Positions 199-7,088 of a DNA stretch of 7,088 nucleotides are shown piece by piece; positions within the stretch are counted from its first letter, which is position 1, and each line of letters begins with the position of its first letter. A model generated the notes under the pieces. It saw nothing but the letters and a program-made list of their open reading frames with translations, ran no database searches and was not told the origin of the DNA. The stretch spans positions 1 through 7,088 of the forward strand of contig JANOHV010000095.1 in NCBI GenBank assembly GCA_031406795.1, in the 5' to 3' direction. The stretch is from DATDCY01 sp031406795 [NCBI: Candidatus Rokuibacteriota bacterium]. GTDB taxonomy: Bacteria; JAUVQV01. The position numbers and the translations under genes are program-made.

Positions 199-591
199 GT
201 GCAGCTGGTTGCGGGGAAGTCCCTCACGAAGGTCAGGTCGCGTCTGGAGGAAGAACAGGCCAGCAAGCTGCGCAAAGCGGCAGTTCTTGCACGGTGCCGG
301 GGCTCCCTGGGGCACGTCCCGGAACCGCTCGTCGGCGACGAAGCCGACCTGGCGGTCGTTTCCATCGAGGAGCAGCTGGAGCACCTTGAGCTGCGACGGA
401 TCTCCTCATCCGTGCGCTCGATCGAGGCGGCCCTGTTGACTATGGAGCTCGGGCGCTACGGGGTCTGCCTCCGCTGCGACCTGCCGATCCCCTCCCGTCG
501 TCTCAAGGCGCTCCCATCGGCGATCCTCTGCCGCGAGTGCCAGGAGGGGGCGGAGGCGGTGCGGACAGAGCGGGCCGGGTGTTGTGCCTGA
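199..591 (+). CDS. DksA/TraR-family C4 zinc-finger protein
   Basis: A 130-residue protein of the DksA/TraR family, whose members insert a coiled coil into the secondary channel of RNA polymerase and, often with ppGpp, retune transcription of rRNA and amino-acid genes. Visible: charged helical stretches at about residues 10-35 and 53-80 that would form the coiled coil, an acidic tip D47-x2-D50-x-A52 matching the DxxDxA tip motif of E. coli DksA, and a C-terminal C4 zinc finger with Cys90-x2-Cys93 and Cys111-x2-Cys114 in the typical YGVCxxC...RLxAxPxAxxCxxC context. It is about 20 residues shorter than E. coli DksA (151 aa), and two further cysteines end the protein. The GTG start is supported by a strong Shine-Dalgarno. 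The stop overlaps the likely start of the CapA-like gene, so the two may be co-translated. Whether this is the housekeeping DksA or a paralogue cannot be told from the window. Confidence 0.9.
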   Translation: MQLVAGKSLTKVRSRLEEEQASKLRKAAVLARCRGSLGHVPEPLVGDEADLAVVSIEEQLEHLELRRISSSVRSIEAALLTMELGRYGVCLRCDLPIPSRRLKALPSAILCRECQEGAEAVRTERAGCCA

Positions 592-1805: not shown

Positions 1806-3023
1806 ATGGTGCTGGCAGCGCTCGATGTCACTGCGGTCGCGGAACCGCAAGCCGTAAGGGGCCTGGTCATGGCCGTGCCGTTCGTTGCCCCCGACGTGCC
1901 GGTAGCCGACGTCGCGGACCGGTTCTTCAAGGAGGAGACGCTTGACGCGCTCGCCGTGGTGGAGGCGGGGCGCCCCGCCGGGCTCCTCACCCGGTCGAAG
2001 CTGCTTGCGACCGTGTTCCAGCCATTTGGCTTCGCGCTGTTCGGCCGCAAGCCCGTGACCGCCGTCGTCGACAGCGCGCCCTTGATCGTCGAGGAATCGC
2101 TGCCGCTCGACGCCGCAATGGAGCTCGCCTTGCGGCGGCCCCCGGCGAACGTGTACGACGAGATCGTCGTCATCGACAGCGACGGCCGGTACTGCGGGCT
2201 CCTCTCCGTCAGGCAGCTGGTGATCCAGCAGAGCCGGGCGCTCGCGAACGCCATGATGCGCGAGGAACTCACGCTGGCCCGCGCCGCGGAACTCGAGGCG
2301 ATGGGTCGCATCAAGTCCCAGTTCGTCGCAAATGTCACTCACGAGCTGCGCTCGCCGGTCAATGCCATCATTGGCCTGGCCGAACTGCTGCGGGACGCCT
2401 GCGACAAGGGGTACCTCGGGCAGGCCAGGGACCGTCTCGCCCTGATGCTCTCGAGCGCGATGCACCTGCGCTCGATCGTCACGAACATCCTCGACTTGTC
2501 CAAGCTCGAAGCGGGACGGATGGAGGTCATCGCCGAATCATTCGCGCTCGCCGAAGTCCTCGCTGAGGTCGCCGACACGACCCGCGTGCTCCTCGGCTCG
2601 AAGCCGGTGACCGTGGAAGACGGCGTCGACGGCCCCTTGTCCGTCGCCGAAACCGACCCGGTCAAGGTGCGCCAGGTGCTGCTCAACCTGGCGGCGAACT
2701 CGGCGAAGTTCACCGAGGTCGGGCGGATCACCATCCGCGCCACCGTGGCGGACGACGACTTCGAGGTCATTGTCTCCGACACCGGCTGCGGCATCGTCCC
2801 GGAGGACCTGGGACGGATCTATGAGGCCTTCACCCAGCTCGAAGACGCACACACGAAGCGCGCAGTCGGCACCGGGCTCGGCCTCGCCATCACGCAGAGT
2901 CTCATCGCCCTTCTCGGCGGGTCCATAACCGCCGCGAGCACCTACGGTGATGGCTCGGCATTCACCATCCGCTTTCCGGTGCGGTACATCCCGCCGGAGG
3001 AAGAAGAGGTTCGCCATGCCTGA
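1806..3023 (+). CDS. Soluble sensor histidine kinase with N-terminal CBS pair
   Basis: A 405-residue two-component kinase. Residues about 17-147 form two CBS repeats: a LAVVEAGRPAGLLTR-type core, the link segment FALFGRKPV (76-84) and a second core with YDEIVVIDSDG (117-127), resembling CBS pairs fused to GGDEF/EAL proteins. CBS pairs often bind adenine nucleotides, so a cytosolic nucleotide or energy signal is plausible but inferred. A short helical linker (about 145-168) leads to HisKA with phospho-acceptor His179 in the H-box (NVTHELRSP), then a HATPase_c domain with N-box Asn294/Asn298, G1 box DTGCG (325-329), F-box EAF (340-342) and G2 box GTGLG (355-359). All catalytic boxes look intact. 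There is no transmembrane segment. ATG 1806 has a GAAAGGA Shine-Dalgarno; the in-frame ATG at 1869 is a less likely alternative because it would cut into the first CBS repeat. The receiver gene overlaps the end by 8 bases, making it the evident partner. Confidence 0.92.
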   Translation: MVLAALDVTAVAEPQAVRGLVMAVPFVAPDVPVADVADRFFKEETLDALAVVEAGRPAGLLTRSKLLATVFQPFGFALFGRKPVTAVVDSAPLIVEESLPLDAAMELALRRPPANVYDEIVVIDSDGRYCGLLSVRQLVIQQSRALANAMMREELTLARAAELEAMGRIKSQFVANVTHELRSPVNAIIGLAELLRDACDKGYLGQARDRLALMLSSAMHLRSIVTNILDLSKLEAGRMEVIAESFALAEVLAEVADTTRVLLGSKPVTVEDGVDGPLSVAETDPVKVRQVLLNLAANSAKFTEVGRITIRATVADDDFEVIVSDTGCGIVPEDLGRIYEAFTQLEDAHTKRAVGTGLGLAITQSLIALLGGSITAASTYGDGSAFTIRFPVRYIPPEEEEVRHA

Positions 3024-3387
3024 GACCGCCAAGACGGTTCTTGTCATCGACGACGACCCGCAACACCTCAGCGCCACCCACGACATCCTCAGTGCCGAGG
3101 GTTACCAGGTGCTGACCCAGCAGCGGCCTTTCGGGGTCACCAATCTCATCGTACGCCACAAACCGGATCTGGTCCTGCTCGACGTGAACATGCCCGGTCT
3201 CTCCGGCGACGGCCTCGCCTTGATCCTCTCGGACAACCCCCTGTGCTCCGGTACTCCCGTCGTCTTCCACTCCTCGAACGACGAGGACTCGCTGCGGCTG
3301 CTCACGCGCAAGCACGGGGCGCGGGGGTACATCTGCAAGGGCAATCCCCACGACCTGCGCCGAAAGGTGGCGGCCTTTGTCGCCTGA
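3016..3387 (+). CDS. Single-domain response regulator (CheY-like receiver)
   Basis: A 123-residue stand-alone receiver domain. Acidic pocket Asp12-Asp14 (VIDDDP), phospho-acceptor Asp56 (LLDVNMPG), the switch Ser86/Ser87 after strand 4, and conserved Lys108 (YICKG) are all present. There is no room for a DNA-binding or enzymatic output domain, so it must act by binding a partner or by passing on phosphate, as CheY or Spo0F do. It starts 5 bases before the end of the histidine kinase stop codon, with an AGAGG Shine-Dalgarno 6 bases upstream of ATG 3016, so the pair is translationally coupled and the kinase is its likely phosphodonor. A frame continuing upstream to 2947 lies wholly inside the kinase gene and is not the start. 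Its target is unknown. The phn operon begins 117 bases downstream, but direct promoter binding is not expected from this protein. Confidence 0.92.
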   Translation: MPETAKTVLVIDDDPQHLSATHDILSAEGYQVLTQQRPFGVTNLIVRHKPDLVLLDVNMPGLSGDGLALILSDNPLCSGTPVVFHSSNDEDSLRLLTRKHGARGYICKGNPHDLRRKVAAFVA

Positions 3388-3504: not shown

Positions 3505-3948
3505 ATGATCCAGCCAGCTGGCAAGTCACTCAAGGGTGAAGTCCTCGCCGTGCTGCCGGAGGCCTATCCGGAAGAGACGCAGCAGCTTCTCGAGGAGCTG
3601 GGGCCGGATGGCGTGGAGGTGACCCGCGCGCCCGCTCCCGCTCTCGTGATGATGGCCGCCCGCGACTGCTTCGGCACGCCGTTCCACCTCGGTGAGGTGC
3701 TGGTCACGACCGCCGCCGTGCAGCGCGATCGCCGGCCCGGGCACGGCACGATCCTCGGCGACGAGCCCGCGAAAGCCGTGCTGCTCGCCTGTCTGGACTT
3801 GCTCGATGAGCGCGAGCAACTGCTGGTGCGGGAGCGCCTCGCCCCGCACCTGGCGCGTCTCGCGCACCGTGCCGCGATGCGCCGCGGGCTGGCGGCCGGC
3901 ATGACGGGAAGCACCCGGGTCGACTTCCAAACCATGGCGGCGGAGTGA
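3505..3948 (+). CDS. phnG: C-P lyase core subunit PhnG
   Basis: A 147-residue protein close in length to E. coli PhnG (150 aa). It is part of the PhnGHIJ core complex that, with PhnI, swaps the base of a nucleoside triphosphate for phosphonate. Recognisable are the central GTPFHLGEVLVTTAAV segment (matching GERFFAGDATLTRAAV in E. coli as I recall it), the GHGTILGD turn followed by a helix with ACLDLL, and the diagnostic C-terminal STRVDFQTM (136-144) matching ASRVDFFTM. ATG 3505 has a strong GGAGGAG Shine-Dalgarno 5-7 bases upstream. The gene opens a compact operon after a 117-base leader. Its stop lies 5 bases before the preferred phnH start. I see no Pho box upstream, so control by PhoB is not evident here. 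Confidence 0.93.
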   Translation: MIQPAGKSLKGEVLAVLPEAYPEETQQLLEELGPDGVEVTRAPAPALVMMAARDCFGTPFHLGEVLVTTAAVQRDRRPGHGTILGDEPAKAVLLACLDLLDEREQLLVRERLAPHLARLAHRAAMRRGLAAGMTGSTRVDFQTMAAE

Positions 3949-3953
3949 ACGGG

Positions 3954-4529
3954 ATGATGAACATCGCCCACGCACTGGACCAGAGGATCTTCAGGACGCT
4001 GCTCGACGCGTTGAGCGCCCCGGGCCGGCGTCTGCCGCTCCCCGGCCATGTGCTGCAGCGCACCCGCGTCCCCGCCGCGAGAGTCCTGGAGGTCCTCTTC
4101 GACCAGGACAGCACCTTCGCCGTGACGGGGCCGGGCGCCGCCGACCTGACCGAGGAGATACGACTCGCCACGGGCGCGCGCCCGGTTGCGGTGCCTGAAG
4201 CGGACTTTCTCGTCGTGCTGGGGCCCTGGACGGACGGAGCGCTGCGGAGCGCACGTCGCGGCCGCCCGGAGAACCCCGAGGAGGGCGCGACGGTCTTTTA
4301 TCTGCTCGATCGCCTTGGCGGCATCCCGCCCACGGCGTCCTTCAGCCTGCGGGGGCCGGGGATCAAGCCCGGCGTCGATCAGGCGCCGGAAATGCCGGGG
4401 CTGTTCCGAGACGAGCTGCGTCTTCTGGGCGAGGTGAACCGGGACTTCCCGCTCGGCGTGGATGCCTTCTTTCTGGATCGGGAGTCGGTCATGGCCGTGC
4501 CGCGGTCGGTCGGGCTCGTCGAGGCCTGA
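3954..4529 (+). CDS. phnH: C-P lyase core subunit PhnH
   Basis: A 191-residue protein (E. coli PhnH is 194). PhnH is a structural subunit of the core complex with a fold related to PLP-dependent transferases but no PLP chemistry, and is needed for phosphonate use. Family hallmarks seen: N-terminal FRTLLDALSAPG (13-24), a PE-x-GATV segment in mid-protein, the LRGPGI turn, and the C-terminal NRDFPLGVDAFF (162-173) followed by a VPRS ending. ATG 3954 is chosen because GGAG (3942-3945) sits 8 bases upstream. GTG 3945, overlapping the phnG stop by 4 bases, is an in-frame alternative adding three residues, and ATG 3957 is also possible. A single base separates the stop from the TTG start of phnI. 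Confidence 0.92.
   Translation: MMNIAHALDQRIFRTLLDALSAPGRRLPLPGHVLQRTRVPAARVLEVLFDQDSTFAVTGPGAADLTEEIRLATGARPVAVPEADFLVVLGPWTDGALRSARRGRPENPEEGATVFYLLDRLGGIPPTASFSLRGPGIKPGVDQAPEMPGLFRDELRLLGEVNRDFPLGVDAFFLDRESVMAVPRSVGLVEA
4521..4524 (+). promoter_or_regulatory. Shine-Dalgarno that decides the TTG start of phnI
   Basis: GAGG, embedded in the last codons of phnH, ends 6 bases before TTG 4531. With the homology of the first residues, it supports TTG as the true start in place of the open frame further upstream. Confidence 0.6.
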
Positions 4530-4530
4530 G

Positions 4531-5610
4531 TTGGCCTACGTCGCCGTCCGTGGCGGCCGCGAGGCCATCGAGAGCGCGGAGCGCTACCTGCAGTTCCAGC
4601 GCGACCAGGGTCCCGCGCCGCCGCTCGAAGTCTCGCAGGTGGCGGCCCGGCTCCACCTCGCGGTCGATCGGGTCATGGGCGAGGGCTCGCTCTACGCCCC
4701 GGACCTCGCCGCCCTGGCGCTCATCCAGTCCGCGGGCGACACCTTCGAGGCGGCGTTCGCCCTGCGCGCCCACCGGGCGACGCTTCCGCGCATCGCCGCC
4801 ACGCCGGCGGAAGGAACCGGCTCGATGCGCGTCATTCGCCGCATCTCCTCAGCGTTCAAGGAGATCCCCGGCGGCCAGCACCTGGGGCCGACGGCCGACT
4901 ACACGCTGCGTCTGCTGGATTTCTCGCTGGTCGAGGAGGACCCGGCCGGCCGTGCCGCGCGGCTCGAAGCTTTCATGCGCGAGGCGGGGTCGGCGGCGCC
5001 TGCGCCCGAGACGTTCCCGAAGATGATCGACATCCTGCGGGCCGAGAACCTCCTCGCCGACGAGCCGGGCGCGGGGGAGGAGGCGCCGTTCGACGTCACG
5101 CGCGAGGCGCTGCGCTTCCCGGCGCCGCGCAGCGCGGTGCTCCAGACGCTCTCCCGGGGTGAGACCGGCGGGCTCCTCGCCCTGGCCTACTCCAACATGC
5201 GCGGCTACGGAGCGGTTCACCCGACGATCGGGGAGCTGCGCGTCGGGTTCCTCCCCCTGAGGGTGCCGCACCCGGTCACGGGCCGGATCGAGACCCTCGG
5301 CGAGGTGAAGGTCACCGAGGCGGAGATCATCTCCCAGTTCCCCGAGGCCGGCGCGGCTCCGCGGTTTCACCTCGGCTACGGCCTCTGCTTCGGCCACAAC
5401 GAGACCAAGGCGATCTCGATGGCCGTGCTCGACCGCGCGCTGCGCCAGCGGGGGAGCGCCCCGTCCGAGGACGCGGAGTTCGTGCTCTCGCACGTGGACG
5501 GCATCGAGGCCATGGGGTTCGCCGGCCACTTCAAGCTTCCGCACTACGTCACGTTCCAGTCGTCGCTCGATCGGCTGAGAAAGATGCAGGGGCGCGATGC
5601 TGGCGCGTGA
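4531..5610 (+). CDS. phnI: C-P lyase core subunit PhnI (phosphonate ribosyl transfer)
   Basis: A 359-residue protein of normal PhnI length. PhnI displaces the adenine of ATP with phosphonate, giving ribose-1-phosphonate 5-triphosphate; alone it acts as a nucleosidase. The N-terminus YVAVRGGREAI (3-13) matches the conserved YVAVKGGEKAI start of E. coli PhnI, which places the start at TTG 4531, one base after the phnH stop and with GAGG 6 bases upstream. Conserved blocks: LAVDRVMGEG (43-52), IPGGQHLGPTADY (112-124), LALAYSNMRGYG, LGYGLCFGHNETKA, and the C-terminal GHFKLPHYVTF. In that last block His333 and His338 match the two histidines that hold zinc in the E. coli core complex. The middle region (about 135-190) is acidic and variable. 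An in-frame ATG at 4462 exists but would translate 23 unrelated residues inside phnH. The end overlaps phnJ by 14 bases. Confidence 0.94.
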   Translation: MAYVAVRGGREAIESAERYLQFQRDQGPAPPLEVSQVAARLHLAVDRVMGEGSLYAPDLAALALIQSAGDTFEAAFALRAHRATLPRIAATPAEGTGSMRVIRRISSAFKEIPGGQHLGPTADYTLRLLDFSLVEEDPAGRAARLEAFMREAGSAAPAPETFPKMIDILRAENLLADEPGAGEEAPFDVTREALRFPAPRSAVLQTLSRGETGGLLALAYSNMRGYGAVHPTIGELRVGFLPLRVPHPVTGRIETLGEVKVTEAEIISQFPEAGAAPRFHLGYGLCFGHNETKAISMAVLDRALRQRGSAPSEDAEFVLSHVDGIEAMGFAGHFKLPHYVTFQSSLDRLRKMQGRDAGA

Positions 5611-6481
5611 GTGGATCGGCCGGAAAGAGCGACCGGTCGCGAGCCACGGCCACAACTTCGGGTTCATCGATGAAGGGAGCAAGCGCGAAGTCCGGCGCGC
5701 GATCCTCAAGGCCGTGGCGATCCCGGGGTACCAGGTGCCCTTCGGGTCGCGGGAACTCCCGATCGCCCGCGGGTGGGGCACGGGCGGACTGCAGATCACG
5801 CTCTCGATCATCGGGCCGGACGACGTCCTCAAGGTGATCGACCAGGGAGCCGACGACTCGGTCAACGCGGTCTCGATCCGCCGGTTCGTGCAGACGGTGA
5901 CCGGCGTGCGCACGACCACCGCCACGCGGGAGTCGTCCCTGATCCAGACTCGCCATCGAATCCCCGAGGAGCCGCTCGGACCGGGACAGATCCTGGTGCT
6001 TCAGGTGCCAATCCCCGAGCCGCTGCGGCTCGTCGAACCCTCCGAGGCGCAGACGCGCCGCATGCACGCCGAGGCGGACTACGGCCTGATGTGGCTGCAC
6101 CTCTACGAGGACATCGTCCGGTTCCGCGAGATCACGATCGCCTCGCGCTACCCGGTGCTCGTCAACGGACGCTACATGATGGACCCCTCGCCCGTGCCGC
6201 GCTGGGACCTGCCCCGGCTGCACCTGGCCGAAGCCCTCTTCCTCTTCGGCGCCGGCAGGGAGAAGCGCATCTACGCCGTGCCGCCCTGGACCCGGGTCGA
6301 GCCGCTCGAGTTCGCCGATCACCGCTTCCGGGTCGAGGACTTCGGGGGCCGCCGCTGCGCGCACTGCGGCGCGACGGACACCTACCTCGACGAACTGGTC
6401 GACGACGCGACCGGCGAGCGCACCCACAGCTGCTCGGACACCTCGTACTGCGGCAAGCGCCGGGACGGGAGGGCCGGGTGA
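5597..6481 (+). CDS. phnJ: Alpha-D-ribose 1-methylphosphonate 5-phosphate C-P lyase PhnJ (radical SAM)
   Basis: The 294-residue catalytic subunit, which cleaves the C-P bond of 5-phosphoribose 1-phosphonate to a hydrocarbon and a cyclic ribose phosphate using a 4Fe-4S cluster and S-adenosylmethionine. The block AILKAVAIPGYQVPFG contains Gly44, aligned with the glycyl-radical Gly32 of E. coli. Also present are WGTGGLQIT, VIDQGADD, LIQTRHRIPE, QVPIPEPLR, VNGRY and FGAGREKRIYAVPP. The C-terminus holds Cys254-x2-Cys257, Cys279 and Cys285, with the same spacing as E. coli Cys241/244/266 (cluster) and Cys272 (thiyl radical), so the enzyme should be active. It has about 12 extra N-terminal residues relative to E. 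coli; ATG 5597 is the only reasonable start before the core. It overlaps phnI by 14 bases, and its stop overlaps the phnK GTG in a GTGA junction. Confidence 0.96.
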   Translation: MLAREWIGRKERPVASHGHNFGFIDEGSKREVRRAILKAVAIPGYQVPFGSRELPIARGWGTGGLQITLSIIGPDDVLKVIDQGADDSVNAVSIRRFVQTVTGVRTTTATRESSLIQTRHRIPEEPLGPGQILVLQVPIPEPLRLVEPSEAQTRRMHAEADYGLMWLHLYEDIVRFREITIASRYPVLVNGRYMMDPSPVPRWDLPRLHLAEALFLFGAGREKRIYAVPPWTRVEPLEFADHRFRVEDFGGRRCAHCGATDTYLDELVDDATGERTHSCSDTSYCGKRRDGRAG

Positions 6482-7088
6482 CCGAAACGCGTCCGCTGCT
6501 CTCCGTGCGCGGTCTCGGCAAGCGCTTCGGCCGCGGCTGCGAGCTCTGCGCGGCCACCGTCCGGGAGGAGGGCGACCCGGTCCGCTGCCCGCGGTGCGGG
6601 ACGGTGGTCGCCTGCCACGACGTCGAGTTCGATCTCTTCCCGGAGGAGGTGCTCGGGATCGTCGGCGAGAGCGGCTCGGGCAAGAGCACGCTGCTGCGAC
6701 TGCTGCACTTCGACCGGGAGCCGACCGCCGGGAGCATGTTCATCGTCCCCGGCGCCGCCGGCAGCGACCGCGCCGAAGCGGCCGGGGAATCCTTCGACGG
6801 GCTCGCCGAGGAGAACCTCTTCGCGGCGAGCGCCTTTCGGCGTCGTCAGGTGCGCAACCGCCTGATGGGGATCGTCTACCAGAGCCCGCACCTCGGGTTG
6901 CGGCTGGACGTCTCCGCCGGCGGCAACGTCGCGGAGCGGCTGCTCGCCGCGGGATGGCGCAGCGTCGGGGAGATGCGACGCCGCGCGGCGGAGCTGCTCG
7001 AGCGGACCGAGGTGCCGATCGACCGCATCGACGACGCGCCGCGCACCTTCTCCGGCGGCATGCAGCAGCGCGTGCAGATCGCCAAGGC
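6478..7088 (+). CDS. phnK: C-P lyase ATP-binding protein PhnK with zinc-ribbon-like insertion (partial, 3' end outside window)
   Basis: The first 203 residues of an ABC-type ATPase; the window ends just after the signature motif. PhnK docks on PhnJ of the core complex and uses ATP in the C-P lyase cycle; it is not a transporter. Visible: LLSVRGLGKRFG (7-18), Walker A GESGSGKST (63-71), Q-loop Gln135 (IVYQSP), the PhnK-typical VSAGGNVAERLL (145-156) and signature FSGGMQQR (191-198). Walker B and the H-loop lie beyond the window. GTG 6478 overlaps the phnJ stop by 4 bases and has GGGAGGG (6467-6473) upstream. Two departures from E. coli PhnK stand out: Cys21-x2-Cys24-x12-Cys37-x2-Cys40 (plus Cys46) inserted before the strand leading to Walker A, which looks like a zinc ribbon; and about 20 extra residues between Walker A and the Q-loop (around 90-118). 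The identity as PhnK rests on gene order and the conserved blocks. Confidence 0.92.
   Translation, partial: MTETRPLLSVRGLGKRFGRGCELCAATVREEGDPVRCPRCGTVVACHDVEFDLFPEEVLGIVGESGSGKSTLLRLLHFDREPTAGSMFIVPGAAGSDRAEAAGESFDGLAEENLFAASAFRRRQVRNRLMGIVYQSPHLGLRLDVSAGGNVAERLLAAGWRSVGEMRRRAAELLERTEVPIDRIDDAPRTFSGGMQQRVQIAK

Follow-up and report, generated by a model that had tools for sequence, protein, structure and literature searches.

The PhnK protein at the end of the window (the whole stretch of DNA analysed, 7,088 nucleotides) carries a four-cysteine insertion. It occupies the tip of the hairpin between strands 1 and 2 and follows directly on the A-loop, the element that stacks against the base of ATP. 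PhnK with these four cysteines is a major subtype, present in many bacteria and some archaea, and the insertion is probably a tetra-cysteine metal site with a structural role; zinc is the likeliest metal, and the site would stiffen the hairpin near the core of C-P lyase.

The gene order in the window is G, H, I, J, K, with phnK placed directly after phnGHIJ (Table 1). Among NCBIfam models the PhnK fragment scores best with TIGR02323 (PhnK; 119.6 bits); it also matches PF00005, and its top sequence match in the PDB is E. coli PhnK (7z19_I). Walker A, Gln and SGGMQQR, three of the ABC ATPase motifs, lie within the window, and Walker B and H fall beyond its end; across PhnK representatives, the equivalents of Q90, D170, E171 and H204 are kept wherever aligned. 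The window PhnJ has all four Fe-S cysteines intact (codons 6356, 6365, 6431 and 6449). After Walker A, PhnK contains a second insertion, of 15 residues (about residues 96–110), which is absent from the other 24 rows of the PhnK alignment. A CBS-domain histidine kinase with a response regulator and a DksA/TraR-type zinc-finger protein are also encoded in the window.

Table 1 Features of the window
Feature	Position	Strand	Remarks
DksA/TraR-type zinc-finger protein	199–591		PF01258; near window start
CBS-domain histidine kinase and response regulator	1806–3387		just upstream of phnG
PhnG	3505–3948	+	PF06754 above cut-off; TIGR03293 79.1 bits, below cut-off of 89
PhnH	3945–4529	+	PF05845 and TIGR03292, both above cut-off
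PhnI	4462–5610	+	longest ORF; PF05861 454 bits, scanned from 4477
PhnJ, C-P lyase radical subunit	5597–6481	+	PF06007 473 bits
PhnK-type ABC ATPase, 5' part	6478–7088	+	203 aa; open at window end
A-loop aromatic Phe17	6526–6528	+	aligned with E. coli Tyr15; directly 5' of insertion
Four-cysteine insertion of PhnK	6535–6615	+	CxxC-x12-CxxC plus Cys46; codons Cys21 6538–6540, Cys24 6547–6549, Cys37 6586–6588, Cys40 6595–6597, Cys46 6613–6615
Walker A (GESGSGKS) of PhnK	6664–6687	+	sequence and alignment
15-residue insertion of PhnK	6763–6807		after Walker A

Read in frame from its GTG start, which overlaps the PhnJ stop, PhnK runs ...KRFGRGC21ELC24AATVREEGDPVRC37PRC40GTVVAC46HDVEFDL...GESGSGKS, confirming the five cysteines that the initial annotation had placed in a short insertion. 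The insertion lies between the A-loop (KRFG) and strand 2; in E. coli PhnK the A-loop residue is Tyr15, according to the structural study (PMC9947105). Absence of the motif from the E. coli protein, which the initial annotation had stated, was borne out both by its sequence, which has no cysteine at this position, and by a gap of ~20 residues there in the alignment of four E. coli-type PhnKs.

CxxC-x(4-24)-CxxC arose in 65 of 200,000 shuffles of the 203-aa fragment, which has 5 cysteines. Stronger than shuffling is the recurrence of the pattern at this position of PhnK in 78 loci (near-copies included), which makes a chance origin unlikely. The window by itself would leave room for an error of frame or assembly where phnJ meets phnK, but relatives refute such an error, the insertion being in frame in 77 other loci, finished plasmids included, and we regard it as exceedingly improbable.

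Distribution and loss of the cysteines

We searched 1,636 genomes from eight phyla for PhnJ (PF06007) and then read the adjoining PhnK. Because the phyla had been chosen for an already known insertion-bearing locus, the eight centre genomes were excluded, as were two sub-cut-off PhnJ matches, leaving 98 loci in seven phyla, of which 97 were scorable. PhnK contained CxxC-xn-CxxC in 48 of these 97 loci and in all seven phyla: Bacillota (16/16), Verrucomicrobiota (2/2), Actinomycetota (8/10), Chloroflexota (14/19), the phylum of locus L015 (5/9), Deinococcota (2/13) and Pseudomonadota (1/28). Five further PhnJ places in Pseudomonadota, outside the main count, all adjoined a site-less PhnK (5/5), and in Bacteroidota PhnJ was found in the centre genome only (1/168).

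Four-cysteine PhnK was also present in 5 of 12 plasmid loci, hand-picked from 215 matching records (three haloarchaea, a Thiothrix and a Mesobacillus), and in 22 of the 79 PhnKs read in a contig scan with the window PhnK, which were among the best 80 of 547 relatives and therefore biased towards the window protein's own motifs. The proposal of a lineage-specific PhnK subtype thus stands as far as the subtype is concerned; the survey rules out a lineage-specific oddity, with the site present in close to half the loci surveyed and in both bacteria and archaea. Two Mycolicibacterium loci with four-cysteine PhnK (L049 and L068) are very divergent and have long branches; with E. coli PhnL as query, phnL went unmatched in L049 and was matched weakly (28%) in L068.

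Across all loci read (near-copies and E. coli included), 78 had the four cysteines, 8 had an insertion that lacks the site, and in 98 PhnK was short. When tested, conservation in close relatives was not poor: after thinning, all four cysteines were kept in 48 of the 53 insertion-bearing representatives. The remaining bearers comprise four from Bacteroidota/Opitutales that keep the Cys37 equivalent alone and one (L093) that keeps none. No insertion with two or three of the four cysteines was seen among the 53 representatives, which indicates that the site is all-or-nothing.

Spacing between the cysteine pairs was 12 residues in 34 of the 48 representatives and 11 in 8, with 7, 9, 10, 13, 16 and 17 occurring once each. 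The fifth position, that of Cys46, was a cysteine in 30 of the 48, ruling out an essential fifth cysteine. Constant knuckles, a loop of 7–17 residues and a variable fifth cysteine are what would be expected of a four-ligand site. When 45 of the 48 four-cysteine (C4) representatives were aligned, leaving out the oddly spaced L084, L101 and L160, the invariant columns were the four cysteines and one glycine; because the cysteines are what defines the C4 class, this invariance is partly circular and the all-or-nothing count is the fairer test.

The insertion could instead merely decorate a variable hairpin tip and be dispensable, its cysteines inherited and dropping out together after a first loss. 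This would fit the several lineages that have deleted or degraded the insertion, the four or more changes of PhnK state on the PhnJ tree (at least 4), and the Actinomycetota sisters L092 and L093, which show two stages of site loss: L093 retains the insertion without cysteines, L092 has lost the insertion, and the PhnJ cysteines are intact in both. However, across many phyla and two domains the four cysteines have survived deep divergence around a variable loop, and we consider mere decoration quite improbable. The number of site losses is uncertain, since PhnK trees rejected neither Deinococcota-type and Bacteroidota-type as one clade (0.468) nor Deinococcota-type and E. coli-type as one clade (0.798). 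As to polarity, the trees are compatible both with a gain of the site and with its loss in the E. coli type: the Mycolicibacterium C4 rows were basal under LG+G4 and not basal under a mixture model, and an E. coli-type basal split was not rejected (p-AU 0.586).

A probable metal site and its proposed place at the core

For L162, the full-length relative nearest to the window PhnK in the tree, the AlphaFold2 model of PhnK had a mean pLDDT of 96.5 (96–98 over the insertion blocks), with strands at residues 2–13 and 39–50 flanking the insertion. This model matched E. coli PhnK (7z19_I) with Z 34.9 and rmsd 1.3 over 248/248 chain residues at 53% identity. The window ribbon segment modelled alone was poor (pLDDT 78.7), and a fold search with it against the PDB gave no match at E ≤ 0.001. 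A PDB profile search with 19 insertion segments likewise gave no match below E 0.031, so that homology of the insertion to a named zinc family is unsupported.

The two cysteine knuckles of the insertion, CxxC and CPxCG, are nonetheless those of zinc ribbons. In a Pfam scan, the TFIIB zinc ribbon was matched by 10 of the 19 segments, weakly, and most of the other families matched, all weakly, were zinc-binding; for the window segment, all 10 Pfam matches were under their cut-offs. A zinc-ribbon model of Pfam also picks up the Fe-S cysteines of PhnJ itself (22.2 bits), and this resemblance therefore cannot tell zinc from Fe-S. We take zinc to be the most likely metal. Because the CPxCG knuckle is common to rubredoxins, where it is the second knuckle, the site might instead bind iron (rubredoxin-like or Fe-S), or serve the [4Fe-4S] cluster of PhnJ in redox chemistry or electron transfer; we consider this unlikely, and the state of PhnJ beside each PhnK, described below, bears on it from both sides. 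Against the zinc reading, the E. coli-type and Deinococcota-type complexes manage without a finger. For RNA or DNA binding by the insertion, another early suggestion, we found no support.

If the zinc reading is correct, the two CxxC knuckles would together hold one metal ion, which would make the lengthened hairpin a rigid finger of the zinc-ribbon kind. The E. coli study (PMC9947105) describes PhnK and PhnL as docking on their partners in the same orientation, with PhnL contacting PhnK through a longer hairpin between strands 1 and 2. It further describes PhnK as binding PhnJ and driving core opening, and as contacting the central insertion domain of PhnJ and residues 226–229, which just precede the domain with the Fe-S cysteines (235–281). 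By analogy, the shared orientation and the reach of the PhnL hairpin suggest that the PhnK finger should point to the core. There it could reach the PhnJ surface formed by the central insertion domain and residues 226–229, beside the Fe-S cysteine domain, and might stiffen or tune the coupling of ATP binding to core opening.

Two E. coli PhnK residues that contact PhnJ, Arg82 and Tyr118 (PMC9947105), are mostly replaced in C4 types, by N in 29/46 and by V in 29/46, respectively, so that the PhnJ contact is remodelled. Site-less Deinococcota-type PhnKs likewise lack Arg82, and its change alone therefore does not implicate the finger. PhnL does not stand out as the partner of the finger: among the PhnLs compared, its hairpin is much alike across all PhnK types.

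PhnJ proteins without Fe-S cysteines

PhnJ cysteines 244, 266 and 272 (E. coli numbers), and sometimes 241, are replaced in some loci of Deinococcota, some Chloroflexota, rhizobial plasmids and Bacteroidota/Opitutales. A column comparison places the differences in PhnJ cysteine columns with the short-type PhnKs of Deinococcota/Chloroflexota and with Bacteroidota/Opitutales. Pfam scores the cysteine-less proteins as PhnJ (388–418 bits). PhnK was site-less in all 24 cysteine-less loci (near-copies included) and short in all of ten more that were found by similarity to one such PhnJ (Thermus thermophilus pVV8, six alphaproteobacterial plasmids and three surveyed Pseudomonadota genomes). Beside four-cysteine PhnKs the PhnJ cysteines were intact in all 77 cases in which PhnJ could be scored. 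The reverse does not hold: PhnK of the E. coli type, without the site, adjoins an intact PhnJ, and the PhnJ cysteines are intact beside 79 short PhnKs and L093.

The phn operons with cysteine-less PhnJ (L014, L018, L020, L022, L027, L151, L156–L158, L179–L189, L195, L197–L199, L201, L202, L205–L207, L210 and L211) are otherwise complete-looking, with the PhnK site broken or absent in each. As annotated, the Thermus pVV8 operon comprises phnC, D, E, G, H, I, J, two ATPases and a PhnM-type hydrolase. Three Pseudomonadota genomes hold two kinds of C-P lyase operon (L205/L209, L207/L208 and L206/L138), in which L138, L208 and L209 are classical copies with four PhnJ cysteines and L205–L207 their cysteine-less partners; outside those three genomes, we saw one PhnJ match per genome in part of the survey listings.

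On a tree of PhnJ from which the cysteine domain had been left out, cysteine loss amounted to two changes and absence of the PhnK site to at least 4. An independent-pairs test of co-loss on this tree was not significant and a single clade of cysteine-less PhnJ was not rejected (p-AU 0.695), and the co-loss thus rests on one or two events. For an iron or redox role of the PhnK site, the constant pairing of cysteine-less PhnJ with a broken site (24/24 plus 10/10) and of C4-type PhnK with intact PhnJ cysteines (77/77) are favourable, but the 79 short E. coli-type PhnKs and the L092/L093 pair retain the PhnJ cluster without the PhnK site, and the possibly one or two events behind the co-loss weigh against it as well. 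The tie to the radical enzyme PhnJ raised by the initial annotation accordingly has circumstantial backing from cysteine-less PhnJs, which in our sample always lie beside a site-less PhnK, and is called into question by the few events involved and by the E. coli-type loci.

Co-loss is consistent with a functional link, and equally with a change of chemistry in one lineage, followed by the loss of several features. It is possible, though we hold the idea only tentatively, that the PhnK site works with the Fe-S centre of PhnJ and that one branch of phn operons, cluster-free and with a different chemistry, shed both. Such a branch, if real, would take in Thermus, Deinococcota, some Chloroflexota, rhizobial and related plasmids and Bacteroidota/Opitutales; it would keep the rest of the PhnGHIJKL machine, the transporter and PhnM, and would be a relative of C-P lyase that coexists with the classical operon in some genomes. 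Cysteine-less PhnJs are annotated as C-P lyase, and it may be a mistake to include them among methane or phosphate producers.

Annotation and comparison with known systems

The equivalog cut-off of TIGR02323 (CP_lyasePhnK) is 302.85 bits. Five full-length C4 PhnKs all scored below it (258.6, 236.6, 230.1, 211.5 and 177.9), as did the site-less non-E. coli types L014, L182 and L197 (3/3), whereas the E. coli-type L028 (398.5 bits) and L074 (369 bits) passed (2/2). TIGR02323 was still the best model for each PhnK scored, the window fragment included. By context, fold and best model, the window protein is a divergent PhnK subtype that lies outside the TIGR02323 equivalog as curated. In annotated plasmid loci that bear the site, the sole name given to PhnK is 'ATP-binding cassette domain-containing protein'; with this generic name and scores below the NCBI cut-off, the long form is missed by name-based surveys. 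In the open-access literature (most subscription journals lie outside it) we found no report of the PhnK cysteine motif or of PhnJ without cysteines. Among the PDB sequence matches shown, the only PhnK of known structure is the site-less one of E. coli, and models of ATP-driven C-P lyase opening rest on one of two main PhnK forms.

E. coli PhnK (PDB 7z15–7z19) resembles the C4 type in its fold, its ABC motifs, its gene order after phnJ and its conserved Arg78, which is R in 39/46 C4 representatives; it differs in having neither insertion nor cysteines at this place and in the Arg82 and Tyr118 that C4 types mostly lack. Its sister ATPase in the same complex, PhnL, has a lengthened hairpin between the same two strands, as described in PMC9947105, but that hairpin is cysteine-free and meets PhnK at its C-terminal helices. 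Zinc ribbons and knuckles of the TFIIB type share the paired CxxC knuckles with CPxCG, as reflected in the weak Pfam matches, whereas the ribbon predicted for PhnK sits in the hairpin of an ABC ATPase and is shorter than most. Cysteine metal sites are grafted on other ABC ATPases as well, in the zinc modules of UvrA and the zinc hook of Rad50; these lie elsewhere in the ABC fold than the site in PhnK, and they bind DNA or pair molecules.
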